DNA of 64,000 nucleotides from Flexithrix dorotheae DSM 6795 (lineage in GTDB: Bacteria > Bacteroidota > Bacteroidia > Cytophagales > Flammeovirgaceae): the NCBI RefSeq assembly GCF_000379765.1, contig NZ_KB903449.1, forward strand, positions 179-64,178, in the 5' to 3' direction. Numbering within the stretch: position 1 is the first letter of the stretch; each line of letters begins with the position of its first letter. The position numbers and the translations under genes were made by a program. Positions 30,525 to 60,994 of the stretch are shown piece after piece. Below the pieces are notes generated by a model. That model had not been told where the DNA came from and ran no database searches. It saw only the letters and a list, made by a program, of their open reading frames with translations.

Positions 30525-31121
30525 ATGGAACTTAAAAATAATCTATCAGATTTAAATCTCATTAAAGCCATAAAAAATGAAAATGAACAGGGATTGGAGC
30601 AATTGTTTGAAAAATATTATCAGCCCCTTTGTGAATTTTCGGAAATCATTGTGACCAATTCTGATTTAGCTGAAGAAATCGTTTCAGATTTGTTCCTGGA
30701 GTTGTGGACTAAAAGGAAAACCATACAAATTGAAACGGGAGTAAAATCCTACTTATTTGTGGCGGTAAAAAATAAAAGCATCAATTATTTAAAACAACAT
30801 AGAAAAATTTCCTTCATTGACCTGGAAGGAGGAGAACATAAAATTCAGGTGGAAAATGAAGCGGAATCGATGTTGGGATGCACCGAACTAAATTTGGCTA
30901 TTAATAAATTGTTAAATACCATGCCTGCCCAAAGAAGGTTAATTTTTCGCATGAACCGAATAGAAGGATTTAAATATAAAGAGATTGCAGAAATACTATC
31001 AATCTCCGTACATACTGTTCAAAACCAGATGGTTAAGGCCAACAAATTCCTGATTGAAAAATCATACTTACTCCTTAAGCAAATGGTTTTATTCCCTGTT
31101 TTGCTGTTAGGTTTAATTTAA
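30525..31121 (+). CDS. ECF-type RNA polymerase sigma factor (FecI-like)
   Basis: From the ATG at 30525 the protein has 198 residues (the frame opens at 30411 but only through a TTG and non-homologous codons). It has sigma region 2 (about 25-90, FEKYYQPL, AEEIVSDLFLELW) and region 4 (about 125-175, MPAQRRLIFRMNRIEGF, AEILSISVHTVQNQM), the form paired with FecR in Bacteroidota. It directs transcription of the downstream SusCD genes when freed by the FecR protein. Order sigma-FecR-SusC-SusD is the classical arrangement. Confidence 0.93.
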   Translation: MELKNNLSDLNLIKAIKNENEQGLEQLFEKYYQPLCEFSEIIVTNSDLAEEIVSDLFLELWTKRKTIQIETGVKSYLFVAVKNKSINYLKQHRKISFIDLEGGEHKIQVENEAESMLGCTELNLAINKLLNTMPAQRRLIFRMNRIEGFKYKEIAEILSISVHTVQNQMVKANKFLIEKSYLLLKQMVLFPVLLLGLI

Positions 31122-31228
31122 TTATCCGTATTTATCCTTAAAAAAGCCAGGTGAAAAACCGAAAATCCAGTTCATAAAAAGCCTATAATTAGTTCATATT
31201 TTGTTTACAAGGAGGGATAGTAGGTGTT

Positions 31229-31261: not shown

Positions 31262-31267
31262 TATAAT

Positions 31268-32311
31268 ATGGAAGAAAGAATCTGGGAATTAATTACAAAG
31301 TATTTATCAAATGAAGCTTCAGAATCGGAAATGGAAGAGTTACAGACCTTCCTAAATGCTGATGAGGAAGCCGAACAACTTTTTGAACAAGCCAGTGCCA
31401 TCTGGTTAAAGCATAAAAGACTACCTTCAAAATACGATTTAGAACTTGGGAAAGCTAAACTTAAATCAAAGTTATTACAACAACAGCTTAAGGAGAAAAA
31501 TCAAAATGGAAAAGTAAAAAAACTAAAGGTCTCCAAAAAAATTTATCAGACAATTTTGGTTGCAGCCTCTATTTCCTTTTTACTCATTTCCACTTTTATT
31601 ATCCTTCCAAAATATTATACAACTCCAGAAGCTGAGGTGGTATGGACAGAAAAATCAGTTCCAAAGGGAATGAGAGCTACTTATTCCATGCCAGATGGAA
31701 GCAAAATTAAAGTCAATTCAAATAGTAAAATTCGCTTTAGAGAAGATTTTGCGCAAAATGATGTGAGAGAAGTTTTCCTGGAAGGTGAAGCTTTTTTTGA
31801 AGTGGCTAAAAATCCCGAGAAACCTTTTGTGGTCATCACCAATAATATTCGGACCAAGGTTTTAGGAACTGTTTTTAATGTAAGGGCCTATGAAGGCGAA
31901 CATGACATCTATGTATCCTTAGTGGAGGGAAGTGTAGCTGTGTATAACAAAGAACAAAACAATAAAGCCGTGCCTGTTTTACTTACCCCTTCCGACCAGT
32001 TCATTTTTAATAAAACAAATTCAACAGGCAACATAAAATCAAAAACAGACTTGACCAGCTTTATCTCCTGGAAGGACAATATACTGATATTTAACAATGA
32101 ACCACTAGGAAAAATTACTGAGGTTTTGGAGAACTGGTATGGAGTGGAAATCATCTTTCAAAACCATCAGCTCAAAAATTGTCTGATAAAAGCATCATTC
32201 CAAAATGAACCATTAAACAATGTATTGGAGGTCCTTAAATATGCGACTTCTCTCCACTATTCAACAAACGAAGATGGGATAATTATTTTAAGTGGAAATG
32301 GATGTCCCTGA
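31268..32311 (+). CDS. FecR-family anti-sigma factor
   Basis: The 347-residue protein has an N-terminal cytoplasmic segment, one membrane helix (about 95-115, ILVAASISFLLISTFIIL), the FecR periplasmic domain (about 125-235, GMRATYSMPDGSKIKVN, EGEAFFEVAKNPEKPF) and a C-terminal DUF4974-like domain (about 265-345). It holds the sigma factor inactive at the membrane until SusC signals that substrate is present. Its start follows the sigma stop by 146 bases. Confidence 0.93.
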   Translation: MEERIWELITKYLSNEASESEMEELQTFLNADEEAEQLFEQASAIWLKHKRLPSKYDLELGKAKLKSKLLQQQLKEKNQNGKVKKLKVSKKIYQTILVAASISFLLISTFIILPKYYTTPEAEVVWTEKSVPKGMRATYSMPDGSKIKVNSNSKIRFREDFAQNDVREVFLEGEAFFEVAKNPEKPFVVITNNIRTKVLGTVFNVRAYEGEHDIYVSLVEGSVAVYNKEQNNKAVPVLLTPSDQFIFNKTNSTGNIKSKTDLTSFISWKDNILIFNNEPLGKITEVLENWYGVEIIFQNHQLKNCLIKASFQNEPLNNVLEVLKYATSLHYSTNEDGIIILSGNGCP

Positions 32312-32481
32312 AATATTACATAAAAGAATTGCCTATGATTAAAAACCAATAAAAAAGGGATACCTGAAAGATATCCCATCATTTCTTAAACCTAATCCAG
32401 CAATCAATTGTGGCGCAACGGATGCTGGAAAGGTTTAGATTTTTTAAACAAAACTTCATGTTTCATTTAAGCTTTAAAATT

Positions 32482-35400
32482 ATGAAAAAAAACTTTATCA
32501 AGAAACTATTAATAATGTCAAGGAACCTAATTTTTGGACTGGTTCTTCAGTCTTTACTCTTTTCCTTTGTTTTTGCCTCAGATGAGCTGAAGGCCCAAAA
32601 ACTAAAGGAAGTGGTTTTGAATATTAATGCAGGTGATATTTCCTTAAAAGAGTCCTTTGGGATCATTGAAGATCAGACAAACTTCAGGTTTTCTTACGCC
32701 CACAGAGGGATTCCATTAAAAACAAAGGTAAATATTGATTCAGAAAATGAAACGCTTGAACGGATCCTTATCAAAATTGCCAAAGAAGCCAAATTAGAAT
32801 TTAAAAGGATAAATGAGCAGATTGTGGTGAGAAGGCATAAAGGAAAATCTATCCATAAACAGCCACTTGTTACTTCCCTACAAGAGGTTATTATTTCAGG
32901 TAGTATCCTTGATGGTACCAATAATGAAGCTATCCCCGGAGCAAGTATTCTGGTAAAAGGCCAATCAACAGGAACAATATCGGATATGAATGGTGATTTT
33001 AAATTATCAGTTCCGGAAAATGCAACGATTTTAGTCACCTTTCTGGGCTATGAATCTCAGGAAATACCCATTGAAGGACAAACAAATTTTGAAATTAAAT
33101 TAATTCCCGATCTACAAGAGTTACAGGAAGTATTAATTGTAGGTTATGGAAAATCTACCAAAAAAGATGTAACCGGAGCTGTGGAAGATGTAAAGTCAGT
33201 AAAGGAAATTGCCAATCGTCCTATCAATAATGTAGGTCAGGTTTTGCAAGGCAACGTGGCTGGTGTAACGGTAATCAATGATGGAGGTGATCCAACGGCT
33301 AATCCGCTAATTTGGATTAGAGGAGTAGGTACCCTTTCCAGTGAAGGTCCACTTTATGTGGTGGATGGTGTAATTGGCGGAGCTGTACCCAACCCAGATA
33401 ATATAGCCTCCATGACTGTGTTGAAAGATGCTTCTTCCGCTGCAATATATGGAGTAAGAGCTGCTTCCGGGGTCATATTAATTGAAACAAAAAAAGGAGA
33501 AGAAGGTAAAATGAATGTTTCCTTCAATTCCTATTTGGGTTTCCAGGAAGTAGGTAAAACCTTAACACCTCTAGATGCACAGGAATATGCAGATATTATG
33601 AATACTGCCTTTGATAATGCTGATCTGGCTATGGATAATCCTGCAAGAGATTATATTGACCCAGATAAAAATCCCTATGGGCTTGTAACCAGGACAAACT
33701 GGATGGATGAAATTTTCCAAAAAGGGAAAATGCAAAACTATGATCTGGCCCTTAGTGGAGGAAATAAAAAAAGTACATTTTACACCGCTCTTGGATATAG
33801 AAAAATTGAAGGAACACTACTTAATACTGAATCTGAGAGGATTTCAATCAGATTAAATTCTACACACAAATTGCGGGAAAATCTCCAGATTGGAGAAAAT
33901 TTCTCTTTGGCTTTTACCAATGGTAATTATGGTGTAAATACTACTTCAGGTTATACAGGAGCCATTATTACAGCATTGTATTATCCCCCGAGTGCAGTAG
34001 TTTGGGAAGATCAGGCGGCTGGACTTTATGGAGGAGTAACTCCAAGAGATAACCTGACATATGCTGGTTCTTATGGGGATTTAATTAACCCGGTTGCCTA
34101 TTTACATCGATTAGATAACAGGAGACCAAGCACTACATTATCCGGAAATTTTTTCATCGATTATGAAATCATTGAAGGATTACATTATAAACTAAATGCA
34201 GGTCTGACCAGGGTAAATTCTTCCAGTAAAAATTTTACAAGCAAAATCCTGGAACCAGGAAAGATTTTCGATTTTAATGAACTGGAACAGTCCAATAGTA
34301 TTTCAAATTCTCTTATACTTGAAAATACACTTTCTTATAAAAAATATCTTGGAAAGGATCATTTATTTGATGTTTTGGCTGGTTATACTGTTCAAAAAAA
34401 TGAAAGTGAATTTTTCAGTATGTCAGCAAGAGGATTTGAAAGTGAGGATGAAAACCTGAGGTATTTCCCAAATGCCACCGGACCTTTCAATACACCAAAT
34501 GGAGGTAGAGGAGAAAACAGGCTTGTTTCTGTATTAGCCAGAGTGAACTATTCTTTTAAGGATAAATATCTTGTTTCGGCCATTGTAAGAAGAGATGGCA
34601 CTTCAAAACTAAATAAGGACAACCGATATGGAACTTTCCCTTCTGTATCAGCAGGATGGAGAATTTCGAATGAAGCTTTCATGGAAGATATCTCATTCAT
34701 CAATGATTTAAAATTAAGAGGTAGCTGGGGCAAAATTGGAAATTTAGGTCCATTGGGTAATTATGCCACTTCCATTAGTCTTTCCAGAACCAGGGCACTT
34801 TTAGGAGATCCTGCATCCTATGACAATTACTTCGGTTATGCTATTAATGGGCTTGTAAATCCTGATTTACAATGGGAAACCACCGTACAAACGGATTTCG
34901 GTATCGATGCTCAGCTTTTTGGAAACAAAGTTTCCTTAATGGCAGATTATTTTGTGAAAGAAACAGATGATATGATCCTGGCAATTCCACTTACTGGTAC
35001 AGCTGGTGTGAGTAATTCTCCCTATGAAAATGTGGGTAAAGTAGAAAACAAAGGATGGGAACTTACATTAGGCTATAAAGAACTTTCCAAATCATTTAAG
35101 TATGAATTTTCGGCTAACCTGGCTTCCATAAAAAATAAGGTTATTTCTCTTGGAGAGAACTATGAAGGAGGAATTCCACATGGTAATAATGTAAGGGGAA
35201 TTTTACAACCATTGAGAAGTGAGGTTGGTCAGCCATTGTATTCTTTTTATTTGTATGAAAATGCGGGGATTTTCCAAAATGAAGCCGAAATAAATAGCCA
35301 TGTATCAAGCGAAGGAAAATTAATCCAACCATTAGCTCAACCTGGGGATTTAAAATTTGTAGATCAGAACGGGGATGGTGTATTGGATGAAAAAGATAAA

Positions 35401-35907
35401 GTTTTTAAAGGAAATGCTTTTCCTAACCTTTCCTATGGATTTAATGCCATGTTGGGGTATAAAAACTTTGATTTCACCATGTTTTTCCAGGGAGTTGATA
35501 ACATTAAAGTATTTAATGGACTTAAATTTTCTACGCTTAAGCCCACTCAGGGATACAACATGCTTGTGGATGTGAAAGATGCATGGTCTGCTGACAATAC
35601 AGGTTCGGATATTCCAAGATTATCAGTAAAAGATGATAATAATAATTTCGGAACAGAATCTGATTGGTACCTGGAAGATGCTTCCTATCTAAGGCTTAAA
35701 AACCTGACAATCGGTTATTCACTACCCACAGCATTAATCAACAAAATTAATGTTCAAAAGCTTAGGTTTTACTTTACAGGAACCAACCTGCTTACCTTCT
35801 CCAACTACTCTGGTATGGACCCTGAGGTCATTGCCGACCGTGGAATTGATATGGGTAGGTACCCACAAGCTAAAAGTTACATTTTTGGTTTAAACCTCTC
35901 TTTCTAA
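32482..35907 (+). CDS. SusC/RagA-like TonB-dependent receptor with STN domain
   Basis: The protein is about 1,141 residues from the ATG at 32482. The frame opens at 32410, but the later Met starts a signal sequence (MKKNFIKKLLIMSRNLIF). An STN domain (about residues 40-95, VLNINAGDISLKESFGIIED) is followed by a CarboxypepD-reg-like domain (about 115-200, IPGASILVKGQSTGTISDMN), a SusC-type plug (about 210-320, containing GYGKSTKKDVTGAVEDVK) and a beta-barrel. With SusD it imports oligosaccharides through the outer membrane. The STN domain contacts FecR, so binding of glycan should activate the sigma factor. Confidence 0.95.
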   Translation: MKKNFIKKLLIMSRNLIFGLVLQSLLFSFVFASDELKAQKLKEVVLNINAGDISLKESFGIIEDQTNFRFSYAHRGIPLKTKVNIDSENETLERILIKIAKEAKLEFKRINEQIVVRRHKGKSIHKQPLVTSLQEVIISGSILDGTNNEAIPGASILVKGQSTGTISDMNGDFKLSVPENATILVTFLGYESQEIPIEGQTNFEIKLIPDLQELQEVLIVGYGKSTKKDVTGAVEDVKSVKEIANRPINNVGQVLQGNVAGVTVINDGGDPTANPLIWIRGVGTLSSEGPLYVVDGVIGGAVPNPDNIASMTVLKDASSAAIYGVRAASGVILIETKKGEEGKMNVSFNSYLGFQEVGKTLTPLDAQEYADIMNTAFDNADLAMDNPARDYIDPDKNPYGLVTRTNWMDEIFQKGKMQNYDLALSGGNKKSTFYTALGYRKIEGTLLNTESERISIRLNSTHKLRENLQIGENFSLAFTNGNYGVNTTSGYTGAIITALYYPPSAVVWEDQAAGLYGGVTPRDNLTYAGSYGDLINPVAYLHRLDNRRPSTTLSGNFFIDYEIIEGLHYKLNAGLTRVNSSSKNFTSKILEPGKIFDFNELEQSNSISNSLILENTLSYKKYLGKDHLFDVLAGYTVQKNESEFFSMSARGFESEDENLRYFPNATGPFNTPNGGRGENRLVSVLARVNYSFKDKYLVSAIVRRDGTSKLNKDNRYGTFPSVSAGWRISNEAFMEDISFINDLKLRGSWGKIGNLGPLGNYATSISLSRTRALLGDPASYDNYFGYAINGLVNPDLQWETTVQTDFGIDAQLFGNKVSLMADYFVKETDDMILAIPLTGTAGVSNSPYENVGKVENKGWELTLGYKELSKSFKYEFSANLASIKNKVISLGENYEGGIPHGNNVRGILQPLRSEVGQPLYSFYLYENAGIFQNEAEINSHVSSEGKLIQPLAQPGDLKFVDQNGDGVLDEKDKVFKGNAFPNLSYGFNAMLGYKNFDFTMFFQGVDNIKVFNGLKFSTLKPTQGYNMLVDVKDAWSADNTGSDIPRLSVKDDNNNFGTESDWYLEDASYLRLKNLTIGYSLPTALINKINVQKLRFYFTGTNLLTFSNYSGMDPEVIADRGIDMGRYPQAKSYIFGLNLSF

Positions 35908-35950
35908 TCGTGGCAAAATGTCAATTTTTTCAATTCAAAAAAGAAATAAA

Positions 35951-37477
35951 ATGAAATATATTAAATATATCCCGGTCATAATTTTGTTGCTCTTTTGCAA
36001 TAGCTGCAGTGAGGATTTTTTGGAACTTACTCCACAAGGCGCCCCTTCTTCTGATAATTTCTGGAAGACTGAAGCTGATTTAATCGCTGCAGTAAATTCA
36101 ATGTATGAACCACTTACCTGGGATGACATGTATGGAAGAGGGTTCTTCTGGTTTATTAATGTAAGTGATGATATGGTAACTGGTAGAGTTAAGGCCGATC
36201 CAGATAAAATGAAAAACTTTATTTGTACCGGTAATGAGGGATATACCAGAAATATCTGGGCAAATAAATATAAGATCATAAAGAGAGCAAATGACATTAT
36301 CGTAAATGCTCCCTTAATAGAAGGTGTAGACCAGGAAGTGAAAAACAGGGCAATGGGTGAGGCTTATTTCTTTTCTGGTTTAATGTATCTTGACTTAGCT
36401 TATAGGTATGGGGACAAAGCTGCAGGTATTCCCATCATCGACCGGGAAAATCTTTTGGAATTTAATTTACCCAGAGTTGAAAATGTAATGATCAATTACG
36501 AATACATTGAAGGGGAATTTGAAAAAGCAGCAGAATTATTACCCGTTTTTAATGAATTTGGTCCCATGGATAGAGGAAGAGCCCATAAGCATGCCGCCAA
36601 CGCTTTTCTGGCAAAAACATATCTTTATTGGGCACAACACGATCCATCAAAATATGCAAAAGCTGTTGAGGCTGCCGATAAAGTCATTAATTCAGGAGAA
36701 CATGCCTTAATTAATACTGGAAACCCCAATGAAGATTTTAAAGCAGTTTTCACATCAGCCAACAATTGGAGCAGCGAATACATTTGGTCTGTAGTTTCCA
36801 ATACCCAAACAGGAAGTATTTTACCTGGTGTAATGTTCGAAAATAAAGGATGGGGAAAATACAATGGCTGGGGATATTATCAACCTACTAAAGAATTGTA
36901 TGATGAATACGAAGCTGATGATGCAAGAAGGGATTTTACTATCTTCAAGGAAGGAACTGTATTCAATTATTTTGGGGAAGACTTTACCTGGACACAAACC
37001 TCCAATAATGTGACAGGCTACATGTTTGGTAAATATACCGAGCCATTTAGCGATAAAGCAAGAGTTAACCCGAATGGGGATAAACCAACATGTGACCTAA
37101 ATGTCCCTTTAATGCGCTATGCTGAAGTATTATTAATTAAAGCAGAAGCGTTGATAGCTGATGGGAAAAATGGCGATGAACCTCTGAATATGGTTAGAAA
37201 AAGGGCTGGATTAAAGCCAGTTTCAGGTGCTACCATGGTAGATTTAAAACATGAAAGAAGATGTGAACTTGCAGGAGAATGGAGTGACAGGCATTTTGAT
37301 TTAATCAGATGGGGAGATGCTGAAGAAGCTTATCACAAGCCTCTTCACGCACATGATAATTCTGAGGTTTGGCCAGCCAGACCACAATTTGACCCTTCCG
37401 TTCACCATGTGTGGCCAATTCCTCCACATGAGATCGAAGCCAGTAAGGGTGTGTTGATACAAAACCAAGGCTGGTAA
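35951..37477 (+). CDS. SusD/RagB-like surface glycan-binding lipoprotein
   Basis: The chosen ATG at 35951 gives 508 residues with a lipoprotein signal (IILLLFCNSC). The alternative at 35918 adds 11 residues before the signal. SusD features include DFLELTPQGAPSSDNFWKTE near the N-terminus, TPR-like helices in the middle and the C-terminal RWGDAEEAYHKPLHAHDNSE with HHVWPIPPHEIEAS. It caps the SusC channel and binds the glycan. Its start lies 43 bases after the SusC stop. Confidence 0.95.
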   Translation: MKYIKYIPVIILLLFCNSCSEDFLELTPQGAPSSDNFWKTEADLIAAVNSMYEPLTWDDMYGRGFFWFINVSDDMVTGRVKADPDKMKNFICTGNEGYTRNIWANKYKIIKRANDIIVNAPLIEGVDQEVKNRAMGEAYFFSGLMYLDLAYRYGDKAAGIPIIDRENLLEFNLPRVENVMINYEYIEGEFEKAAELLPVFNEFGPMDRGRAHKHAANAFLAKTYLYWAQHDPSKYAKAVEAADKVINSGEHALINTGNPNEDFKAVFTSANNWSSEYIWSVVSNTQTGSILPGVMFENKGWGKYNGWGYYQPTKELYDEYEADDARRDFTIFKEGTVFNYFGEDFTWTQTSNNVTGYMFGKYTEPFSDKARVNPNGDKPTCDLNVPLMRYAEVLLIKAEALIADGKNGDEPLNMVRKRAGLKPVSGATMVDLKHERRCELAGEWSDRHFDLIRWGDAEEAYHKPLHAHDNSEVWPARPQFDPSVHHVWPIPPHEIEASKGVLIQNQGW

Positions 37478-37666: not shown

Positions 37667-38710
37667 TTATTCCAGAATGTCTTTCCAATTTTCTTGCTCA
37701 TTAATAAAGGCTAAAACCCAATCCCAATATTTTATTCCATTTACCTGATAATCACGATCCTTAACACAATGTGAATTTCCATTGATGAAAAACCGCTTAA
37801 ATTGGTTTGGGTATTTTGAGTTTAAATCATCTGAGGTACTAAGAAGTAATGATTTATAGCCTTCAGGTTCCAGATTAAGGAATTTTTGACCAATAACCTC
37901 ATCCATATATGCAGAATAAAGCCCTATCTTTATTTTAGGATCTTTAAGCATGTCCTGATACCAATAAATAAGTTGCCCCTTACATTTTTCACAATTTTTA
38001 GGAACGAGTTGATTAAAATTCCAGGACTTAACAATCATTTCCCAAAATTTTTGATCCGGCCTTAATAGTCCTGGGCCACTTTCATTAAGTACAAATATTG
38101 ATGTCTTGGGATAAAGTTCTCTAATAAGCCGTAATTGGATAATCGTTCCATATCCACCTGCGCTACACCCTGTAAGGAAAATTATTGAGATATTTGGATA
38201 TTTTTCCTTAACTAGTTTTATTGCCGCAACACTTATTTTAAGTCCATTATGCCAATGATCAATCTCATAATCAGAGTCATAATCTTTTTCTGAGTCACCC
38301 ATATAAATCGAACCATCACAATACGGGATTACAACCTTATTCCAATCTTCGGCTAACCTTTCATCCAGTTGACTTGTAAAATTTGAAATTCGAACATCAT
38401 TTTCTATAGTTGTTTGTTTGCACCGTAACAATCCAGGCCAACATGCTCCTCCACCCTGAAGCGAAATCATTAAATTTCCGGTTTGTGAGGGAGCGTCTTT
38501 AATGGCAATAAAATACGCTCCACCATTTACACACTTGCAATCTTCTGGTGAAAAGTAGAAGTTTTGCCAACTTGCAAACTTAGCGTTTTCCTTAGTGCTC
38601 ACTGGGGTAATTTCTCCATACCTTTTAAAAAGTGACTTATTGGGGGAACAACTAAAGAGCAAAAGCCCTAACATAATTATTAAACTGGTTGTTTGGTATT
38701 TCACTGACAT
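37667..38710 (-). CDS. pectin acetylesterase-like (PAE/Notum family) esterase, lipoprotein
   Basis: The 347-residue lipoprotein (lipobox cysteine C21, LLLFSC) has the PAE family's SLQGGGACW segment (oxyanion region), nucleophile S183 in TGCSAGGYGT, D270 in YSAYMDE and H314 in NSHCV, a complete Ser-Asp-His triad. It probably removes acetyl groups from the locus glycan at the cell surface or in the periplasm. It lies on the minus strand, converging with the SusCD operon and divergent from the GH43 gene, inside the locus. The acetylated sugar is unknown. Confidence 0.85.
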   Translation of the reverse strand: MSVKYQTTSLIIMLGLLLFSCSPNKSLFKRYGEITPVSTKENAKFASWQNFYFSPEDCKCVNGGAYFIAIKDAPSQTGNLMISLQGGGACWPGLLRCKQTTIENDVRISNFTSQLDERLAEDWNKVVIPYCDGSIYMGDSEKDYDSDYEIDHWHNGLKISVAAIKLVKEKYPNISIIFLTGCSAGGYGTIIQLRLIRELYPKTSIFVLNESGPGLLRPDQKFWEMIVKSWNFNQLVPKNCEKCKGQLIYWYQDMLKDPKIKIGLYSAYMDEVIGQKFLNLEPEGYKSLLLSTSDDLNSKYPNQFKRFFINGNSHCVKDRDYQVNGIKYWDWVLAFINEQENWKDILE

Positions 38711-43121: not shown

Positions 43122-43122
43122 A

Positions 43123-44724: not shown

Positions 44725-44749
44725 GGTGGAAGCGTGCTAAAATTAGCGA

Positions 44750-49610: not shown

Positions 49611-49828
49611 TCTGAAAAAGGTAAAGTGAAAAACCATACTGCGGAAATACCTCAAATAAAAACATATGCTTGCAATGGAAAAACCTTTAAAAGGAAGAAA
49701 GGCTGATAAAACAAAAAATGAAAGTAATTGAGCAAACTCCATTTAAAGTTCTCATTTTCCAAAAACCGGAATATTGAATAAAGCTTTATTTAAGGGGATT
49801 TGAGCAAGAAGTTAAATAGTGGGGAACC

Positions 49829-51788: not shown

Positions 51789-53177
51789 ATGATGAAATTC
51801 AAACGATTTATTGGTACTATTTTATTGTCATTTTGGGCAGGTTTTATATGTGCGCAGACAGAGAAAACTCCCGTGGCTCAAACTCCACCAATGGGCTGGA
51901 ACAGTTATAATTCATATGGTGCAGCCGTTACTGAAAAGGAAATGAAGAGCAACACCGATTACATGGCTGAGAAGTTAAAAGAACTTGGCTGGATGTACAT
52001 TGTGGTAGATTATTGTTGGTCATATCCTCATCCTCCTGGAAGCACACAGAACAATCCTCCCCAATTCCGGCTTAAAAAGGACAATGCCCCTGTACCCTGG
52101 CTGGGCATGGACGAATATGGCAGGTTATTACCTGATTTAAGAAAATTTCCCTCTTCTTCTGGTGGTAAGGGTTTTAAACCGCTGGCAGATTATATTCATG
52201 AAAAAGGGTTAAAATTTGGTATCCATGTCATGAGAGGTATTCCCCGCCAGGCCGTTTGGGCAAAAACTCCAATTAAGGGCGCTCCCGGTATTGATGCTTC
52301 CATGATTGCAGATACCACCAGCATTTGCCCCTGGTTGAATCAAATGTATGGGATAGACATGAACAAGCCCGGAGCTCAGGAATATTACAATTCCCTAATA
52401 GAATTATATACAGAATGGGAAGTAGATTACATTAAAATGGATGACATTGATTTGAATGAAAAATATCCTTACCGTGCTTCTGAGGGGGAAGCCATGCGAA
52501 AAGCCATAGACCAGGGAGAACGCCCAATGGTTCTAAGTCTTTCTTTAAATATGAAATACGAAAATCGGGAACACGTACAACAAAACGGTGATTTATGGCG
52601 AATTTCCAAAGACTTCTGGGACGACTGGAAGTTGCTTTACAACCAATTTGAACTGACGCAAAAATGGGCTGAAATGGCCGGCCCAAACTCCTGGCCGGAT
52701 GCTGACATGCTCCAGTTAGGCATGATTTCCAGAAGAGGTCCACACGGACCAGAAAGAGAAAGTAATTTTACCCCACAAGAAGAAAGAACACATATGTCCT
52801 TGTGGTGCATCGCAAAATCTCCCCTGATGATGGGAGGAGATATGCCCGATAACAATGAATTTACAGAAAATTTACTCACCAACCCGGAGGTGATAGCCCT
52901 TAATCAGAAAGGAAAAAGTGCAAGACAATATTCCAGAATTGATGACAAAGTAATCTGGATAAGTGAAATGCCCGATGGGAAGACGATCAATATCGGATTT
53001 TTTAACCTGAATGATCAGGAAGAAGAGATTTCCTTGAACTTAAAAGAGGCTGGTTTTTCAGGTAAATTCATGGGAAAAGATTTATGGGAACAAAAAAGTC
53101 TGGGTACAATCAGTGCAAAATTGAAATGCAAACTAGCTCCGCATGATGCCAAATTAATCTCCATAACACAGCAATAG
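51789..53177 (+). CDS. GH27-family alpha-galactosidase-like enzyme
   Basis: The 462-residue exported protein (signal peptide about 1-22, ending FICAQ) has GH27 features: TPPMGWNSYNSYG, VVDYCWSYP, nucleophile D218 in DYIKMDD and acid/base D275 in WRISKDFWDDW. The C-terminal beta domain ends KLAPHDAKLISITQQ. It should release alpha-galactose or a related D-galacto sugar (beta-L-arabinopyranose is also known in GH27). It is soluble, while the paralog at 55107 is a lipoprotein. A Met one codon later is an alternative start. Confidence 0.9.
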   Translation: MMKFKRFIGTILLSFWAGFICAQTEKTPVAQTPPMGWNSYNSYGAAVTEKEMKSNTDYMAEKLKELGWMYIVVDYCWSYPHPPGSTQNNPPQFRLKKDNAPVPWLGMDEYGRLLPDLRKFPSSSGGKGFKPLADYIHEKGLKFGIHVMRGIPRQAVWAKTPIKGAPGIDASMIADTTSICPWLNQMYGIDMNKPGAQEYYNSLIELYTEWEVDYIKMDDIDLNEKYPYRASEGEAMRKAIDQGERPMVLSLSLNMKYENREHVQQNGDLWRISKDFWDDWKLLYNQFELTQKWAEMAGPNSWPDADMLQLGMISRRGPHGPERESNFTPQEERTHMSLWCIAKSPLMMGGDMPDNNEFTENLLTNPEVIALNQKGKSARQYSRIDDKVIWISEMPDGKTINIGFFNLNDQEEEISLNLKEAGFSGKFMGKDLWEQKSLGTISAKLKCKLAPHDAKLISITQQ

Positions 53178-53429: not shown

Positions 53430-53457
53430 TCAATATTCAAAAAATTCAAAATTGAAA

Positions 53458-54924
53458 ATGAAATTACAGTCATTCACATTGATCATTATTACAATAATTG
53501 GATTGTTGGCTTGTAACCAAAAGCCATCAGCAGACACTGAAAAAAAGACTCCTCCCAATATAATTTATATCCTGACAGATGATATGGGCTATGGTGACCT
53601 GAGCTGTTATGGGCAACAAACTTTATCTACACCAAATATTGATAAACTGGCTGCCCAAGGAATGTTATTTACCCAACATTATGCAGGAAGTTCGGTTTGT
53701 GGCCCTTCCAGAGCAGCACTATTAACAGGAAAACATACAGGGCATACATCAGTAAGAGGAAACGCCCCTGCAGGCCAGCTTCTAAAACCCGATGAAATTA
53801 CCATTGCCGAAAAGATGAAAGAGGCTGGATACCATACCGCCCTTTTTGGAAAATGGGGCGTTGGTCATCCTCCGGCCTTAGACGACCCGGCTCAAAATGG
53901 ATTTGATTATGCTTTTGGTTACATTAATATGTGGCATGCCCATAATTTTTATCCAGATTTTCTCTACAAAAACGGGGAGAAAGTTATGCTTAACAACAAA
54001 CAGACGAGTGAGTCTTACGAAAAGTTTAGTGAGGAACCAGAAGGAAGAGGCGTAGCAGAAGTAAGAAATGATTATGCACCTGATTTATTTCAGCAGGATT
54101 TGCTGAGTTATGTGGAAAACCAAAAGGATAATCCATTTTTCATCTATTATGCTTTAAATATTCCCCATGCCAATAATGAAGCAGGTTATTTGACCGGAGA
54201 CGGTATGGAAGTGCCTTCTCATGGAGAATTTGCCAGTAAAGCCTGGCCTGAGCCTGAAAAAGGGTTTGCGGCTGTTATGCAAAAAATAGATCAATATGTG
54301 GGGGAAATTGAAGCAAAACTGGAAGCGCTGGGGATGGCGGAAAATACAATTATAATTTTCACCAGTGATAACGGACCTCATCAGGAAGGAGGGCATCAGG
54401 TAGATTTTTTTGATAGCAATGGGAAACTAAGGGGGGCAAAAAGAGATCTTTATGAAGGAGGTGTAAGAATTCCCATGATTGCCAAATGGCCCGGGAAAAT
54501 AAAACCTGGCATTAAATCAGAACATATCAGTGCTTTTTGGGATATTTTACCCACCTTTTGCGACATTGCCGGAGTAAGCACTCCTTCGGGAATTGATGGC
54601 ATTTCTTTTATGCCCACCTTATTAGGCGAAACCGGGAAGCAAATAAAACATGAGTATTTATACTGGGAATTTTACGAAGTAGGTGGAAAACAGGCCATTC
54701 GGAAGGGAAATTGGAAATATGTAAAATTACATGTGCGTGATGCAGCGGAACCTGTAGCAGAGTTGTACGACCTTTCAAAAGATATAGGTGAGGAAAATAA
54801 TTTAATAGAAGGAAATGAAGATTTGGCCCTGGAGATGGAAAAATTGCTTAATCAGGCCCATCAGCCTGTTGATTTCATTTCCCTGTTTTCTGAAGATGAG
54901 GCTAATGCCGAAACCAAATTTTAA
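53458..54924 (+). CDS. S1 family sulfatase (arylsulfatase A-like)
   Basis: The ATG at 53458 is chosen over the TTG at 53452, giving 488 residues with a lipoprotein signal (IIGLLAC). Metal site YILTDDMGYGDLSCYG; C81 in CGPSR is the formylglycine cysteine. KWGVGHPPALDDPAQNG and TIIIFTSDNGPHQEGG are typical arylsulfatase motifs. It lies between the two GH27 genes, so galactose sulfate is a reasonable but unproven target. Confidence 0.92.
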   Translation: MKLQSFTLIIITIIGLLACNQKPSADTEKKTPPNIIYILTDDMGYGDLSCYGQQTLSTPNIDKLAAQGMLFTQHYAGSSVCGPSRAALLTGKHTGHTSVRGNAPAGQLLKPDEITIAEKMKEAGYHTALFGKWGVGHPPALDDPAQNGFDYAFGYINMWHAHNFYPDFLYKNGEKVMLNNKQTSESYEKFSEEPEGRGVAEVRNDYAPDLFQQDLLSYVENQKDNPFFIYYALNIPHANNEAGYLTGDGMEVPSHGEFASKAWPEPEKGFAAVMQKIDQYVGEIEAKLEALGMAENTIIIFTSDNGPHQEGGHQVDFFDSNGKLRGAKRDLYEGGVRIPMIAKWPGKIKPGIKSEHISAFWDILPTFCDIAGVSTPSGIDGISFMPTLLGETGKQIKHEYLYWEFYEVGGKQAIRKGNWKYVKLHVRDAAEPVAELYDLSKDIGEENNLIEGNEDLALEMEKLLNQAHQPVDFISLFSEDEANAETKF

Positions 54925-55106: not shown

Positions 55107-56570
55107 ATGAATAACAGGATATTTTCAAATTACCTGGTCGGAATGTTATTGCTCACTTTTTGTGCCTGTAACCACAGCGTAAAATATGACCAAAGCCTTA
55201 GCCCCACTACTTCCGAACCTTCCACCTACCTCAATAAAGTAGCGGATACTCCTCCATTGGGATGGAATAGTTTTGATGCATATGATTGCCGTATAAATGA
55301 AGCTGAATTTAAAGCCACTGTGGACTTCATGGCTAAGCACATGAAACCATTGGGATGGGAGTATGCCGTGATAGATTATATTTGGTGGCATCCCGACCCG
55401 GGCAACTGGAATACACCCGACAATTTTACCCGAAGAATTGGCCATCCTAATATTCAGTTTAATGAGGATGGAACCTTAAAACACCCCGAGTGGGTAACCG
55501 TGGACGAATTTGGCAGACTGCTTCCTGCAGTGGAAAGATTTCCTTCCGCCAAAGATGGCCAGGGATTTAAGCCCATTGCCGATTACGTACATGCCAAGGG
55601 ACTAAAATTTGGTATCCATATTATGCGTGGGGTACATCGCTATGTGGCAGAAAAAAACATGCCCATTAAAGGTACCAACATAGGAGCTAGTCAGATTGCC
55701 GAGCCATGGGACACCTGCAAATGGAATAATAATATGTTTGGGGTTGATCCTACCAAACCCGGAGCACAGGAATACTATAATTCTTTATTCGAGCTTTATG
55801 CCAGCTGGGGAGTAGATTATATAAAAGCTGATGATATGATGTTTGCCAATTACCATGCTGGGGAAATTGAAATGATCAGAAAAGCGATTGATAATTGCGG
55901 AAGACCTATGGTTTTAAGTCTTTCTTGTGGAGAAGCACCTTTATCTCAGGCAAAGCATTTGGCGGAAAATGCCAATATGTGGCGAATATCGGCCGATTTT
56001 TGGGATGAATGGGATCATCTTTCCCATAGTTTCGAGTTGCTAAATGCCTGGTCGCCTTGGATTAAAAAACATTCCTGGCCAGATGCAGATATGATCCCTT
56101 TTGGAAAAATTTCCCTCCAGGATCGGCCTCATGGAGAAGAAAGACTTTCCAAATTTACCGTTCCCGAGCAATATACGTTAATGTCGTTATTTGCCATAGC
56201 CCGCTCCCCTTTAATGATTGGTACAGACCTAATTTCCACTCCAAAGGAAACCATTGAAACTTTCTTTTTGAATGAGGAAGTATTACAAATAAATCAGGCA
56301 AGTGAAGACAACAGACAAGTGATAAGAGTCCCGGAAGAATATGCCATTTGGGTTGCTAAAGATCAACATTCTGAAGACAGGTATTTAGCTTTATTTAATT
56401 TAAGTGAAGAAAAAGCAGAAGTAACATTCGATTTCGAATTGGAATATCTAAGGGATAGTTACGAAATAAAAGATATTTGGGCAAAAAAGTCATTGGGGGT
56501 ATTTGAGAATCAATTTGCAGTTGAGCTTCCTACTCATGGTGCGGGTTTATACCGATTAATTAAAAAATAG
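55107..56570 (+). CDS. GH27-family alpha-galactosidase-like lipoprotein
   Basis: The 487-residue lipoprotein (LLLTFCAC) is a paralog of the enzyme at 51789. It has TPPLGWNSFDAYDC, VIDYIWWHP, nucleophile D242 in DYIKADD and acid/base D297 in WRISADFWDEW. Segments such as LKFGIHIMRGVHRY correspond to LKFGIHVMRGIPRQ in the first. Anchoring suggests action at the membrane or cell surface. The two may attack alpha-galactose in different contexts, e.g. before and after desulfation. Confidence 0.9.
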   Translation: MNNRIFSNYLVGMLLLTFCACNHSVKYDQSLSPTTSEPSTYLNKVADTPPLGWNSFDAYDCRINEAEFKATVDFMAKHMKPLGWEYAVIDYIWWHPDPGNWNTPDNFTRRIGHPNIQFNEDGTLKHPEWVTVDEFGRLLPAVERFPSAKDGQGFKPIADYVHAKGLKFGIHIMRGVHRYVAEKNMPIKGTNIGASQIAEPWDTCKWNNNMFGVDPTKPGAQEYYNSLFELYASWGVDYIKADDMMFANYHAGEIEMIRKAIDNCGRPMVLSLSCGEAPLSQAKHLAENANMWRISADFWDEWDHLSHSFELLNAWSPWIKKHSWPDADMIPFGKISLQDRPHGEERLSKFTVPEQYTLMSLFAIARSPLMIGTDLISTPKETIETFFLNEEVLQINQASEDNRQVIRVPEEYAIWVAKDQHSEDRYLALFNLSEEKAEVTFDFELEYLRDSYEIKDIWAKKSLGVFENQFAVELPTHGAGLYRLIKK

Positions 56571-56695
56571 CTTTTCTCCGCATTGGGATGGTTTTTTATC
56601 TTTTGTTTTATGGGAGAATTATTTTAAATTGTTCTTCCAACTGTATTGAAATCTTAAGGAAGAATTACCTTAACCATTACACCTGAAATTTGCTT

Positions 56696-59600
56696 ATGAA
56701 TTGCCTTTTAACTTTCTCCTCTACCATTCCTTTAAGGCTAATCTGGGTATTTTTTGTCCTGCTAAAAATAGCTGACTTAAAAGCTCAGGAAATTGATTAC
56801 AGGTTTCGTCATATTTCTGTAAATGAAGGCCTGGCACATACCGATGCCAAAGCAATTATTCAGGATGAAAAAGGATTTATCTGGATTGGAACAAATGCAG
56901 GATTACAAAGGTATGATGGTAGAGAACTCAGGCTATATCTTAATGATGAAAATGAAGTAAATGCTGTTTATAATAACCGGATAATTTCCCTTAGTGAAGG
57001 CTATAACCATGTTTTATGGATCAGTACAGAAGGTGGATTAAAAAAGTTTGATTTACTTACCCACCAGTATATTCCGCTGTCCACCAATTTGAAAGTACCT
57101 TTAAATGCATTGAAATCGGATGTTTTCCGCACTTTTCCCATTTCAGAAAATCAAATTCTTGTTTTTAGTGCTAATGCCCTGGAACTCCTGGAGATCAGAC
57201 AGGATATCGTGATAAAATGCGAAACTATTTATGAAACTGAACATAAGGAGAATTTTGCATCCTATAGCATTGGAAGGGATGAATCGGGGAAAATTTGGGC
57301 TGCAACCGAAAGGGGGTTATTATCCGTTGATTCTAATGAAAAATCAGCACGGTTATTTCCTGTGACTTTAAATGATGAAGTTCAAAACCTGACGTCAGGC
57401 TTTACCTTTCATGAAAATTATTTATATCTGGCCAGTGGAGATCGGTTGCTAAGGAAACCTGTTGATCAAATTAATGAAAATGCATCCTCTATTGAATTTG
57501 AATTTTTCCCCATTTCCTGGGAAATATTGCTGGGAAATGATGGAAATGAATCTACTAAATTAATCCATCAGGTTTATTCCGGGAAGGATAATATTCTTTG
57601 GCTGGGTACTTCACTTGGGTTGCTAAAATTTAATATTGATGACCCAAAGTCAAAAAGCCTTTTATTTCAATCAAGTGATTATGACCTGTCCAGTTTGTCT
57701 TCAGACCAGATCAGTTCCATTTTTATAGATCGGGGAAACTCTCTATGGGTAGGAACCTTTGGAGGGGGTGTAAATGTGTTAAACCTGAATGAAAAACTAT
57801 TTTATCTGCTTACCAGAAATCTGGAAAATAAGGACAATACCCTAACAGATCATTTTGTAAGAGCAATTCTGGAGGATGAAAAAGGTAACTTATGGATTGG
57901 TACAAAAGAACATGGAATAAACATCTACAATTATGATTCTAAAAAATATTCCTATCTCTTTCATGAGGAAGGGAATAAAAACAGTCTGGTGAGTGATAGA
58001 ATCAGATGTCTGGCTAAGGACCATAAAGACAATATCTGGATTGGCACCACTGATGGCCTTTGTGTTTACAACCAGAATTCTAATAATTTCCATCATCTTA
58101 AAAGTGATGCAAACGATCTCAACAGTATTTCTGAAAATGTTATCTATGCCCTTGATATAGATAAGTTTGGGCAGATTTGGGCTGGTTCATGGCACGATGG
58201 CCTGAATATTATTCATTACAATTCCCACCTGGATTATAAAATTCAGCAACTCTCCTCCAAAACCTTGGGCAGCCTGTTATCTTCAAACGAAATCACTTTC
58301 ATTTATGCAGATAAGGAATTACCCGAAGTGATGGTGGGTACCAAAAACGGGTTGAACCATATTCTTTTAAATGAGCAGGGTCAGATCAACAAAATCATTC
58401 ACTATCAGGTGGATTCGGCCAAATCTGATCAGTTAAGTTCCGCTTTTATATGGCCAATTGTGAAAGAGGATAAAAATAATTACTGGGTTGGCACCCTGGG
58501 AGGTGGATTAAATAAACTCCAAATTGACAGAGAAACAGGCAATTACCGGGCAGAAACTTATAAAATGAATGAAGGAGCCCCTTCAAATGATATAGAAAGC
58601 CTGCTCATGGATGACCAGGGAAATTTATGGCTTGGTGGCAGAGGTTTAGCCAAATTTGACCCAAAATCAAAAGAATTTACAAAATATGATGTGGATGATG
58701 GTTTGCAGGGTAACAGCTTTAAAATCGGTTCTCAGTTTAAATCCAAATCAGGTATGTTATTTTTTGGAGGAACAAAAGGCCTGTCCTATTTCCATCCTGA
58801 TTCCATTATCATAAGTCAACAGAAAACAACTACGGTCTTTACCGATTTTTTTGTAAACGGCAAGAGAGTAATTCCAGGAGAATTTTTTAATTCCGAAATA
58901 GAAATTTTAGAAAATGATATCAATTATACTTCAAGGATTGCATTAAATCATAATGAGAATAATTTTGGATTTCGCTTTGCTGCATTGGATTATACAAATG
59001 CCCAGGGAAATAAATTCAGATATAAACTGGAAGGCTTTGACCAAAACTGGCATGAGATAGATGCCTACAATCCTGAAGCGACTTATTCTAATCTAGATTA
59101 TGGAGATTATACCTTTTGGGTGGTAAGTTCTAATAATGATGGACTTTGGAATAATAAACCAGTTTCGGTAGCCATCAGTATTGTCCCCCCCTGGTGGAAT
59201 ACACCAATGGCTAAAATCATTTATGGCCTGGCCGGACTTTTATTGATTTCCGGACTTTTCCTGTTTCAAAGAAAATGGTACCATTTAAAAAGGGACTTCG
59301 AAATTTCAATGGTAGAAGAAAGAAAAATGGAAGAAATGCACCAAATGCGTCTTCAGTTTTTTACTAATATTTCACATGAATTTAAAACACCTCTAACCTT
59401 AATTTCCGGTCCTTTGCAGAAATTGATGCATAACCAGGTTTCTGAAGCAGATCGGATAAAATATTACAAACTCATTGATAAAAATGCCAGTCGCCTGCTC
59501 AACCTGATTAACGAATTAATGGATTTCAGAAAGGTAGAAACAGGCACATTAAAGTTGAAAGCGATTGAAGGAGATCTCTACAAATTTGTGAATGATACGG

Positions 59601-60994
59601 CTGTTGGATTTGAAGACATCATCAATCAAAAGCAATTAAATTTTAATATTGAAACGAATTGGGAAGATGAAAAAATTTGGTTCGATCCCGGAGTGGTGGA
59701 AAAAATCATTATGAACCTCATTTACAATGCCATTCGATATACAGAACCAGGAGGAAATATCACTGTTGGGGTTTATTCCGAACAACCCAAAAGCCTCTGT
59801 GACTATGCTCATTGTCACACCATCACTTCAGATTTTCGTGCAGATGCATACGTATGGATAAAAGTGTCTGATTCGGGAATCGGGATAAGTCCAGAAGCTA
59901 TTTCCCTTATTTTTGACCGGTATTATCGGATAACAGGAGATAAGAAGAATCACCTGGGTTCTGGTGTGGGGCTGGCCCTAGTAAAAAGCTTGGTAGGTTT
60001 ACACAAAGGAGATATCCATGTTTACAGTGAGAAAGAAAAAGGTACGGATTTTTTTATAGCACTACCGAAAGGAAAAGCCCACCTGAGTGAGGAGGAGATT
60101 CAGGAAATCACCAAACCAGGCAATTTGGAATTAAGCACTTCTTCAGTCTCGGAAGATGAACCTATTGACTTAAAAACTGAGGATTTTGAAGCAGAACCAA
60201 CCCTGAAAGGAGAAACCCCTACTCTACTCATTGTGGAAGACAACGAGGAGTTAAGATTTTTCCTCAAAGAATGCTTTCAGCATGACTACAATGTAATTGA
60301 AGCAGAGGATGGATTAGTGGGATATAAAAAGGCCCTGGAACATTTTCCAGACTTGGTTATCAGCGATATTATTATGCCAAATAGAAATGGGGTAGAACTT
60401 TGTAAAATGCTTAAGGAAAATATGGATACCTGTCATATCCCGGTAGTTCTATTAACAGCAAAATCTTCGGAGGATAGTCAATTGGAGGGCACTACATCTG
60501 GTGCAGATCAATATATTTCCAAACCTTTTAACCTGGAAATATTAAAAGCAAAGGTGACTAACATTCTGAAATCACGAGAAATTTTAAGAGAACGATATGT
60601 CAATAATTCATTGCTGGAATATAGAGAGCTGGCCAATAACCAGAAAGACAGGGAATTTATGGACAAACTTGTGACCATAATTGAAGAACGATTAAGCGAT
60701 ACAGAACTAAATATTGAAAAAATATGCAGGGAGGTTGGACTGGGGAGAACCAAACTTTACAATAAGATTAAAGCCATTACCGGAGAATCAATCGGGCAAT
60801 TTATAAAAAAAATGAGGATGAAAAAATCTTCTGAAATATTGCTTAGTGAGGATGTAAGCGTTACAGAAGTAATGTATCAGGTTGGGATTCAAAGTCAATC
60901 TTATTTTACCAAATCCTTTAAGGCTGAATTTGGCATTACCCCTGCCCAATATGCCAAATCAATGATGGAAAACCAGAAGTCTTTGGATAGTTAA
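56696..60994 (+). CDS. hybrid two-component system sensor/regulator (HTCS, AraC output)
   Basis: From the ATG at 56696 (the TTG at 56690 is two codons earlier) the 1,432-residue protein has a signal peptide, 14-bladed-type reg_prop beta-propeller (about 30-760, repeats such as DEKGFIWIGTNAGL and DEKGNLWIGTKEHGI), a Y_Y_Y domain (about 760-830), a membrane helix (about 840-860, YGLAGLLLISGLFLFQ), HisKA with H894 in NISHEFKTPLTLI, HATPase_c, a receiver domain with D1224 in VISDIIMPNRNG, and an AraC-type DNA-binding domain (about 1320-1425). It senses an oligosaccharide in the periplasm and directly activates locus genes. It ends the plus-strand run. Confidence 0.95.
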   Translation: MNCLLTFSSTIPLRLIWVFFVLLKIADLKAQEIDYRFRHISVNEGLAHTDAKAIIQDEKGFIWIGTNAGLQRYDGRELRLYLNDENEVNAVYNNRIISLSEGYNHVLWISTEGGLKKFDLLTHQYIPLSTNLKVPLNALKSDVFRTFPISENQILVFSANALELLEIRQDIVIKCETIYETEHKENFASYSIGRDESGKIWAATERGLLSVDSNEKSARLFPVTLNDEVQNLTSGFTFHENYLYLASGDRLLRKPVDQINENASSIEFEFFPISWEILLGNDGNESTKLIHQVYSGKDNILWLGTSLGLLKFNIDDPKSKSLLFQSSDYDLSSLSSDQISSIFIDRGNSLWVGTFGGGVNVLNLNEKLFYLLTRNLENKDNTLTDHFVRAILEDEKGNLWIGTKEHGINIYNYDSKKYSYLFHEEGNKNSLVSDRIRCLAKDHKDNIWIGTTDGLCVYNQNSNNFHHLKSDANDLNSISENVIYALDIDKFGQIWAGSWHDGLNIIHYNSHLDYKIQQLSSKTLGSLLSSNEITFIYADKELPEVMVGTKNGLNHILLNEQGQINKIIHYQVDSAKSDQLSSAFIWPIVKEDKNNYWVGTLGGGLNKLQIDRETGNYRAETYKMNEGAPSNDIESLLMDDQGNLWLGGRGLAKFDPKSKEFTKYDVDDGLQGNSFKIGSQFKSKSGMLFFGGTKGLSYFHPDSIIISQQKTTTVFTDFFVNGKRVIPGEFFNSEIEILENDINYTSRIALNHNENNFGFRFAALDYTNAQGNKFRYKLEGFDQNWHEIDAYNPEATYSNLDYGDYTFWVVSSNNDGLWNNKPVSVAISIVPPWWNTPMAKIIYGLAGLLLISGLFLFQRKWYHLKRDFEISMVEERKMEEMHQMRLQFFTNISHEFKTPLTLISGPLQKLMHNQVSEADRIKYYKLIDKNASRLLNLINELMDFRKVETGTLKLKAIEGDLYKFVNDTAVGFEDIINQKQLNFNIETNWEDEKIWFDPGVVEKIIMNLIYNAIRYTEPGGNITVGVYSEQPKSLCDYAHCHTITSDFRADAYVWIKVSDSGIGISPEAISLIFDRYYRITGDKKNHLGSGVGLALVKSLVGLHKGDIHVYSEKEKGTDFFIALPKGKAHLSEEEIQEITKPGNLELSTSSVSEDEPIDLKTEDFEAEPTLKGETPTLLIVEDNEELRFFLKECFQHDYNVIEAEDGLVGYKKALEHFPDLVISDIIMPNRNGVELCKMLKENMDTCHIPVVLLTAKSSEDSQLEGTTSGADQYISKPFNLEILKAKVTNILKSREILRERYVNNSLLEYRELANNQKDREFMDKLVTIIEERLSDTELNIEKICREVGLGRTKLYNKIKAITGESIGQFIKKMRMKKSSEILLSEDVSVTEVMYQVGIQSQSYFTKSFKAEFGITPAQYAKSMMENQKSLDS

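Follow-up and report, generated by a model that had tools for sequence, protein, structure and literature searches.

Of the sulfated polymers made by coenocytic green seaweeds, sulfated arabinans rank among the most important (PMC7550628). In the open PMC literature, no described bacterial polysaccharide utilization locus (PUL) or pathway for sulfated arabinans was found. The nearest described system is PUL13 of Bacteroides plebeius, in which a SusCD pair and sulfatases serve the use of a sulfated arabinose/galactose glycan from the green alga Codium and from wine, and which has S1_8 and S1_14 sulfatases, GH145 and GH43_24 (PMC8406133). The carrageenan PUL of Zobellia galactanivorans also serves a marine member of the Bacteroidota in the use of a sulfated algal glycan (PMC5698469). 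In this study, we analyzed a 64,000-nucleotide stretch of Flexithrix dorotheae DSM 6795 (the window; positions 179-64178 of contig C20, in a 9.5 Mb genome of 101 contigs), which carries a PUL at positions 30411-60994. The glycoside hydrolase (GH) set of the Zobellia locus reportedly differs from that of the window locus.

From the genes present, their active-site residues and the genome context, we consider it fairly probable that this SusCD-type PUL targets a sulfated glycan with L-arabinopyranose (L-Arap) as the main releasable sugar, most likely a sulfated beta-L-arabinopyranan of the Cladophorales kind. A first-pass annotation, made from the sequence alone, had already read it as a sulfated-glycan PUL; the SusCD pair and three sulfatases, all with an intact CxPxR maturation motif ([CS]-x-[PA]-x-R, 3 of 3), bear this out. 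Its statement that no described locus has exactly this gene set is consistent with the open PMC literature, where none was found. Compared with PUL13, the window locus has other S1 types, a GH49-like protein, a DUF5060 protein, two Tyr-type GH27 enzymes and a furanosidase-type GH2. As for GH145 and GH43_24, every open reading frame (ORF) of at least 150 amino acids (aa) in the locus has an assignment, that of the GH43 protein being to the family alone, and the profiles run included none named GH145.

The GH27 pair resembles beta-L-arabinopyranosidases

Two GH27 genes flank one of the sulfatase genes:

51789 to 53177, plus strand: GH27a, predicted beta-L-arabinopyranosidase (PDB entry 4nx0, Abp, E 7.5e-128; VVDY motif)
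55107 to 56570, plus strand: GH27b, predicted beta-L-arabinopyranosidase, likely a lipoprotein (VIDY motif; S1c-GH27b adjacency in relatives)

Both had been annotated as alpha-galactosidase-type GH27. The family assignment holds, and the sub-clade does not, as both proteins are beta-L-arabinopyranosidase-like with Tyr in place of Asp. The best PDB match of GH27a is 4nx0, the Geobacillus GH27 beta-L-arabinopyranosidase Abp (430 bits), and the best entry named alpha-galactosidase scores 134 bits (E 4.7e-38). GH27b is 45% identical to GH27a, with which the PDB search was made. At the position that reads C6, the alignment places Tyr in both GH27a (VVDYCW) and GH27b (VIDYIW). Alpha-galactosidases have Asp at this position, whereas beta-L-arabinopyranosidases have Ile, Glu or Tyr (PMC4598101, PMC5853685). 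Tyr is also found there in Arabidopsis APSE, whose activity on p-nitrophenyl-alpha-galactoside is <0.1 with that on p-nitrophenyl-beta-L-Arap set at 100 (PMC5853685). The closeness of GH27a to Abp and the bulky non-Asp residue in both sequences lead us to predict that the pair are beta-L-arabinopyranosidases. An alpha-galactosidase identity was set aside on the basis of clade (Abp-closest) and of Tyr for Asp. The non-Asp specificity residue is shared with Abp, the top PDB match of GH27a, and with CpArap27 of Chitinophaga pinensis. These two enzymes carry Ile, whereas the window pair carries Tyr and adjoins sulfatases.

Tyr-type GH27 genes in related genomes

The comparison set was drawn from 390 genomes of the order and 395 of the phylum, which gave 61 GH27 matches at E<=1e-80; the window locus and its two nearest matches (in genomes G398 and G399) were added. 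One 16.1 kb locus (L155) was removed as a repeat of L154 (320 of 320 sampled 50-mers, owing to a contig terminal overlap), leaving 63 distinct loci. Each stretch covered ~10 kb per side where the contig allowed, several being <20 kb at contig ends. The residue class was read from the alignment column, and GH27b of the window was not counted as a separate locus.

The C6-reading residue is Tyr in 6 loci, Ile in 45, Phe in 10, Leu in 1 and Gln in 1. A sulfatase lies within ~10 kb of 5/6 Tyr-type loci vs 1/57 non-Tyr loci. The Fisher p of 5e-6, computed without kinship correction, is only descriptive because the five Tyr loci come from three genomes of one family and are non-independent. As a background, 6.7% of the G398 genome and 7.7% of the G399 genome are that near a sulfatase. 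Among the 57 non-Tyr loci, 25 have araA within ~10 kb (22 from one genus, 3 from two other families), and this proximity supports an L-arabinose role for the wider GH27 clade, with a sulfatase-linked subset in the family of the window genome. In a FastTree phylogeny of 64 GH27 proteins (the 63 loci plus GH27b of the window, without the duplicate L155), the GH27a and GH27b lineages are separate and the Phe-type proteins stand beside GH27a. A single Tyr clade was thus rejected, and Tyr therefore arose or was retained in two lineages.

Related loci surround the araBAD genes

In G398, the start sequence of contig C2 recurs at position 320719 and the contig ends overlap by ~28 kb (loci L154, L155, L220 and L224). 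Because of this overlap, C2 is probably circular, with a length of ~320.7 kb; this replicon, which bears a sulfatase/araBAD locus, is possibly a secondary chromosome or a plasmid. Read across the overlap, the gene order begins with a hybrid two-component sensor/regulator (HTCS; 36% identity, opposite strand), SusC (30%), SusD (26%), an S1a-like sulfatase (52%), GH2 (35%) and an S1 sulfatase. It continues with a sodium:solute symporter (SSF; 55% over 231 aa), a further S1a-like gene (48%), a 329-aa protein, an S1 gene, araA-araD-araB and a 610-aa protein. The end is formed by a GH49-like gene (34%), a second one (25%), an S1b-like gene (35%), S1c (57%), GH27b (59%), GH43 (45%) and an S1 gene. 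Eleven window genes thus have counterparts in one cluster around araBAD, five at about 45-59% identity and the remaining ones at levels usual between PULs. The distance to GH27b is ~11 kb for araB and ~13.6 kb for araA, and SSF lies ~5 kb from araA.

Arabinose genes also accompany relatives of the locus elsewhere. In G399, a sulfatase gene adjoins araA, with genes for GH43 and a GH49-like protein (29%) alongside. In a Fulvivirga metagenome-assembled genome (locus L100) the order is araB, araD, HAD-like, araA, SSF (65%), GH43 (52%) and DUF5060 (72%), followed by three other genes (two of them GH43), two sulfatases and GH2 (36%). The adjacency and order of S1c and GH27b are common to the window, G398 and G399; in the latter two, GH27a also lies close to DUF5060. 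The genome context in relatives points to L-arabinose as the released sugar. The galactose-rich substrate first proposed for the locus is unsupported: Tyr stands in both GH27 proteins, Abp is the closest match of GH27a, and genes for L-arabinose catabolism sit in the related loci. Galactose may still be present in galactofuranose side chains, on which GH2 would act.

As a separate observation, a homologue of pentameric ligand-gated ion channels is encoded near GH27a and a sulfatase in G398 (L016, 13400-14392; Neur_chan_LBD E 2.3e-19).

Three sulfatases, one of them S1_20-like

The sulfatase genes of the locus are:

44692 to 46281, plus strand: sulfatase S1a, CTPSR motif (6hhm E 1.3e-48; iduronate-2-sulfatase 1.6e-33; G398 counterparts at 48% and 52%)
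48246 to 49742, minus strand: sulfatase S1b, CNPSR motif (Pfam E 3.8e-41; 61% counterpart ~9 kb from GH27a in G398)
53452 to 54924, plus strand: sulfatase S1c, S1_20-like, likely a lipoprotein

S1a is S1_7-like on our assumption that 6hhm is an S1_7 ulvan sulfatase. The highest PDB scores of S1c are 354 bits for 7ana and 328 bits for 7an1, which we take to be the S1_20 enzymes BT1622 and BT1636, respectively; the next match has 227 bits. S1c and two orthologues keep His164, Glu312 and a following Arg (3/3 aligned sequences, window included), which presumably correspond to the BT1636 residues of the published description. In that description, BT1636 reads the axial O4 by a His that is well conserved across S1_20, and O2 by a Glu and an Arg that are absent in BT1622 (PMC10154612). 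S1c, whose nearest solved sulfatases are these two, keeps the axial-O4 His and has the Glu/Arg for O2 as in BT1636, and it is predicted to be an exo 3-O-sulfatase acting on a galacto-configured pyranose. L-Arap and D-Gal have the same C1-C4 configuration (PMC7550628); the S1c site would therefore fit 3-sulfo-Arap whose O4 is free, as at the non-reducing terminus of a 4-linked chain. S1c differs from BT1636 and BT1622 in its formylglycine precursor, which is Cys, unlike their Ser, and in its substrate, which is probably arabinose rather than galactose.

In G399, a 1256-aa protein (L018, 8734-12504) has an S1a/S1b-related sulfatase at its start, and more sulfatases and GH49-like genes are located nearby.

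Other enzymes and the symporter

The remaining enzymes and the transporter are encoded as follows:

37667 to 38710, minus strand: PAE/Notum-type carbohydrate acetylesterase, likely a lipoprotein (Pfam PAE E 8.5e-17)
38926 to 39918, plus strand: GH43, single domain (Pfam E 9.4e-35; 5c0p E 1.6e-67)
39962 to 41821, plus strand: GH2, furanosidase group GH2_18/19 closest (7xyr 542 bits; 9j6n, beta-D-galactofuranosidase, 306 bits)
42113 to 42919, minus strand: DUF1080 / 3-keto-disaccharide hydrolase, likely a lipoprotein (Pfam E 4.4e-29)
43123 to 44616, plus strand: GH49-like hydrolase, candidate backbone endo-hydrolase (6nzs E 1e-12; no Pfam match at E<=0.001)
46356 to 48143, minus strand: DUF5060 glycosidase with a GH-A type fold (Pfam; AlphaFold pLDDT 93.2)
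49872 to 51743, plus strand: sodium:solute symporter (Pfam SSF E 5.9e-73; 65% orthologue adjoining araA in L100)

Counterparts of GH43 stand beside GH27b in G398 (45%) and beside araBAD-SSF in L100 (52%). In the GH43 group formed by the window, L100, L154, L158 and L159, the position usually taken by the general-acid Glu seems to be Asp (VTDG) in 5/5 aligned sequences.

Four PDB entries match GH2 at E<=1e-80 (7xyr, 9j6n, 9j6m and 7sf2). The deposited name of the best one, 7xyr, is beta-glucuronidase. This identity was set aside because 7XYR is, according to PMC12243196, an uncharacterised GH2_19 member, placed with 9J6M in group III, and because two of the three other close matches are entries of a beta-D-galactofuranosidase. 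With the GH2_18/GH2_19 furanosidases 9J6M and 7XYR, the window GH2 has in common a YT..(T/S)D(V/I)E.E.NG stretch near the C-terminus; an NE motif is present in the window protein and absent from 7XYR. We predict that it is a beta-D-galactofuranosidase or an alpha-L-arabinofuranosidase. The uronic acids suggested by the first-pass annotation find no counterpart in the locus, where no Pfam uronate lyase or GH88/105/115 match was obtained and GH2 is nearest to furanosidases, the name of 7xyr qualifying this negative result. In Neolewinella lacunae KCTC 42187 (L065, 3266-12708), a GH2 is 63% identical to that of the window, with a GH49-like gene (24%), a sulfatase, DUF5060 and DUF1080 close by.

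The protein at 43123-44616 had been called GH28/GH49-like, of which the GH49-like part stands and the GH28 part was rejected, with no GH28 among the PDB or Pfam matches at E<=1. A phmmer search against PDB gave six matches at E<=1: two dextranases, two isopullulanase sequences, a peptidase and an alpha-1,3-glucanase. Asp315, Asp334 and Asp335, which we take to be the catalytic Asp triad of GH49, are kept in 8/8 aligned sequences, window included. The Pfam GH49 model PF03718 reaches 11.8 bits against a cut-off of 27 (E 0.24), and for this reason we name the protein GH49-like rather than GH49. It has the Asp triad and a flanking motif in common with GH49 dextranase and isopullulanase; unlike them, it lies under the Pfam threshold and is not expected to have a glucan substrate, and it possibly forms a separate, as yet unassigned family.

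For the DUF5060 protein, a sequence search against PDB gave no match. Its model comprises a GH-A type barrel with strand-rich N- and C-terminal parts. Fold matches were 4n0r (Z 30.1, root mean square deviation 3.2, 460 aligned), the GH5 enzyme ManDH5, 9gpa (Z 29.0, 2.9, 474), and GH140 8t9w (Z 25.8, 2.9, 372); they are only 16-18% identical in sequence, and among the families listed the fold search yields no single one. Relatives are widespread, with at least 80 loci in Bacteroidota, Planctomycetota, Verrucomicrobiota and others. In the neighbourhoods of the 80 listed loci (up to 10 kb per side, often less), GH27 of the window type occurred in 1, GH2 in 6, GH43 in 1, SSF in 2 and GH49-like in 2, and S1a-, S1b- and S1c-like sulfatases in 16, 13 and 18, respectively. 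On these counts we rejected DUF5060 as a marker of whole-locus conservation: DUF5060 alone does not mark the PUL type.

The SSF symporter is predicted to take up L-arabinose. Acetylation of the substrate, also proposed earlier, is possible given the one PAE esterase, and no PAE counterpart was found at E<=1e-10 in the stretches of G398 and G399 examined.

Locus organization and flanking genes

ORF calls and Pfam matches define the span 30411-60994, in which an adjacent SusC/SusD pair is found together with glycan enzymes. They confirm the gene content and order given by the first-pass annotation, with the start moved from 30525 to 30411 as an ORF; the in-frame ATG at 30525 is likely the start of the sigma factor. 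The order is extracytoplasmic function (ECF) sigma factor, FecR, SusC, SusD, PAE (minus strand), GH43, GH2, DUF1080 (minus), the GH49-like protein without a Pfam match, S1a, DUF5060 (minus), S1b (minus), SSF, GH27a, S1c, GH27b and an HTCS ending at 60994. The Pfam matches are far stronger than chance would give (E-values: SSF 5.9e-73; sulfatases 3.8e-41 to 6.7e-55; GH27 1.3e-28 and 1.1e-19). The regulatory and SusCD genes are:

29515 to 30375, minus strand: AraC-family regulator, divergent neighbour (Pfam HTH_18 E 9.3e-22, ExsA_N)
30411 to 31121, plus strand: ECF sigma factor (Pfam Sigma70_r4_2, Sigma70_r2)
31268 to 32311, plus strand: FecR-type anti-sigma factor (Pfam FecR, FecR_C)
32410 to 35907, plus strand: SusC-type TonB-dependent transporter (Pfam TonB barrel, Plug, CarbopepD_reg_2; STN under its cut-off)
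35918 to 37477, plus strand: SusD-type surface glycan-binding lipoprotein (Pfam SusD_RagB E 1.4e-32; Cys behind a hydrophobic N-terminus)
56690 to 60994, plus strand: HTCS, 1434 aa (Pfam Reg_prop, Y_Y_Y, HisKA, HATPase_c, Response_reg, HTH_18)

The AraC-family regulator is possibly part of the locus control. Between 30000 and 49900, promoter-like sites showed no excess (55 vs a shuffle mean of 62.6) and terminator-like sites numbered 28 vs 17.8; neither was used. Genome-wide, 109 matches to the sulfatase model were counted, some of them pieces of one gene. On the right flank (window 61556-64000, on to L001 1556-14458), a SusC/SusD pair and a protein of 374 aa that matches no Pfam family (minus strand) are followed by four consecutive sulfatases (plus strand). 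We treated this set as a neighbouring locus, possibly of the same or of a second sulfated-glycan system. A separate glycan cluster at window positions 761-13701 comprises GH43, a sulfatase, GH95 and a LacI-type regulator (minus strand), then an SSF symporter, a FAD oxidoreductase and GH16 (plus strand).

Proposed degradation route and alternative substrates

The xylogalactoarabinan of Cladophora falklandica has a 4-linked beta-L-Arap backbone with sulfate mainly at C3 and also at C2, and stubs of beta-D-xylopyranose and beta-D-galactofuranose (PMC7550628). A fraction of Codium isthmocladum resembles it (PMC9695659). Save for PAE and DUF1080, the enzyme set (two Arap-type GH27, a 3-O-type sulfatase, a furanosidase-type GH2 and GH43) would map onto such a polymer. 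Surface enzymes, probably the GH49-like protein, would cut the backbone; its beta-L-Arap linkage matches an alpha-D-galactoside in configuration from C1 to C4. The oligosaccharides would be imported by SusCD, and GH2 would trim furanoside side chains from them and GH43 a side chain of pentose. An arabinosidase role for GH43 and an action of GH2 on arabinofuranose are also conceivable. S1a and S1b may take off other sulfates. S1c would strip the 3-sulfate from the non-reducing-end Arap, which GH27a/b would then remove, and SSF would move L-arabinose to the cytoplasm for araBAD, encoded on another contig. Expression would be controlled by the ECF sigma/FecR pair and the HTCS.

Three other substrates were weighed against this sulfated beta-L-arabinopyranan. 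A sulfated type II arabinogalactan or arabinogalactan protein (AGP) of algae or seagrass, from which GH27 would remove terminal beta-L-Arap caps while sulfatases unmask the galactan, is an unlikely target, if still a serious candidate, although a GH27 beta-L-arabinopyranosidase has been implicated in arabinogalactan use (PMC4598101) and B. plebeius uses the sulfated AGP of Codium fragile, its AGP PULs having GH2, GH27, GH43 and sulfatases (PMC8406133). The locus has no Pfam GH16, GH30 or GH35 match, its ORFs of at least 150 aa being otherwise assigned; none of the 21 PDB matches of GH43 is named exo-beta-1,3-galactanase, which is an absence only; and in the two sulfatases compared, the S1_8 entry 9bb9 scores low (S1a, 169 vs 75 bits; S1c, 354 vs 88 bits). 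Moreover, a marine Maribacter grown on arabinogalactan has no GH27 in its system, according to PMC11036162. The arabinose evidence fits equally a linear 3-linked sulfated beta-L-arabinopyranan of Codium/Bryopsidales, without galactofuranose or xylose side chains (such arabinans are reviewed in PMC7550628). We hold this target improbable, if likewise a serious candidate: the polymer would offer no substrate for the furanosidase-type GH2, nor probably for GH43, and most such arabinans carry their sulfate at O2 or O4 (PMC9695659), whereas S1c looks 3-O-type.

That the target is a sulfated galactan such as agar or carrageenan, with the GH27 enzymes acting on modified alpha-galactose, seems very unlikely to us. 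In its favour, galactose or carrageenan is the substrate of S1_20 sulfatases and of several PDB matches of S1c, galactose and Arap are alike from C1 to C4, and the second GH27a match is a putative alpha-N-acetylgalactosaminidase as deposited. Against this stand the Tyr at the GH27 specificity position, the araBAD linkage in relatives and the lack of any locus protein matching Pfam GH16 or GH127/GH129-type families.

Several observations weigh against a sulfated beta-L-arabinopyranan of the Cladophorales kind. That second-best distinct match of GH27a (3cc1) scores 389 bits, and the C6-reading residue alone is insufficient to fix GH27 specificity (PMC5853685). Cladophora polysaccharides vary, a C. 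oligoclada fraction consisting of galactose and glucose units (PMC8540071). The sulfatase-linked GH27 genes of the Tyr type come from three genomes, all of one family; the sixth Tyr locus, L195, belongs to a genome of another family and lacks a sulfatase across its 15 kb, and araA is within ~10 kb of 0/6 Tyr-type loci. In the window genome itself, araBAD is alone on contig C3, with no PUL genes in the 20 kb around it (L222). Of the 80 listed DUF5060 loci, only one (L100) has araBAD. The SusC, SusD and HTCS identities to G398 are only 26-36%, as between any PULs. No GH49-like relative at E<=1e-30 was found in 394 other genomes of the phylum, a set without G398 and G399. Finally, PAE and DUF1080 have no place in the scheme, and GH43, S1a and S1b have no assigned specificity.

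Significance

It is possible, if less likely than not, that the locus represents the first recognised PUL type for green-algal sulfated pyranosic arabinans, with relatives in other genera wrapped round araBAD. Such a PUL would direct at least two unprecedented glycosidase activities, a GH49-like endo-beta-L-arabinopyranase and a DUF5060 glycosidase, at the same polymer, and its S1c-GH27b pair would remove 3-sulfo-arabinopyranose stepwise. If a sulfated arabinan is indeed the substrate, the locus names enzymes for the breakdown of these polymers and corrects an easy mis-annotation of Tyr-type GH27 as alpha-galactosidase. It would also provide an enzyme tool set to read the structures of sulfated arabinans, and the function of the GH49-like and DUF5060 proteins would become testable.

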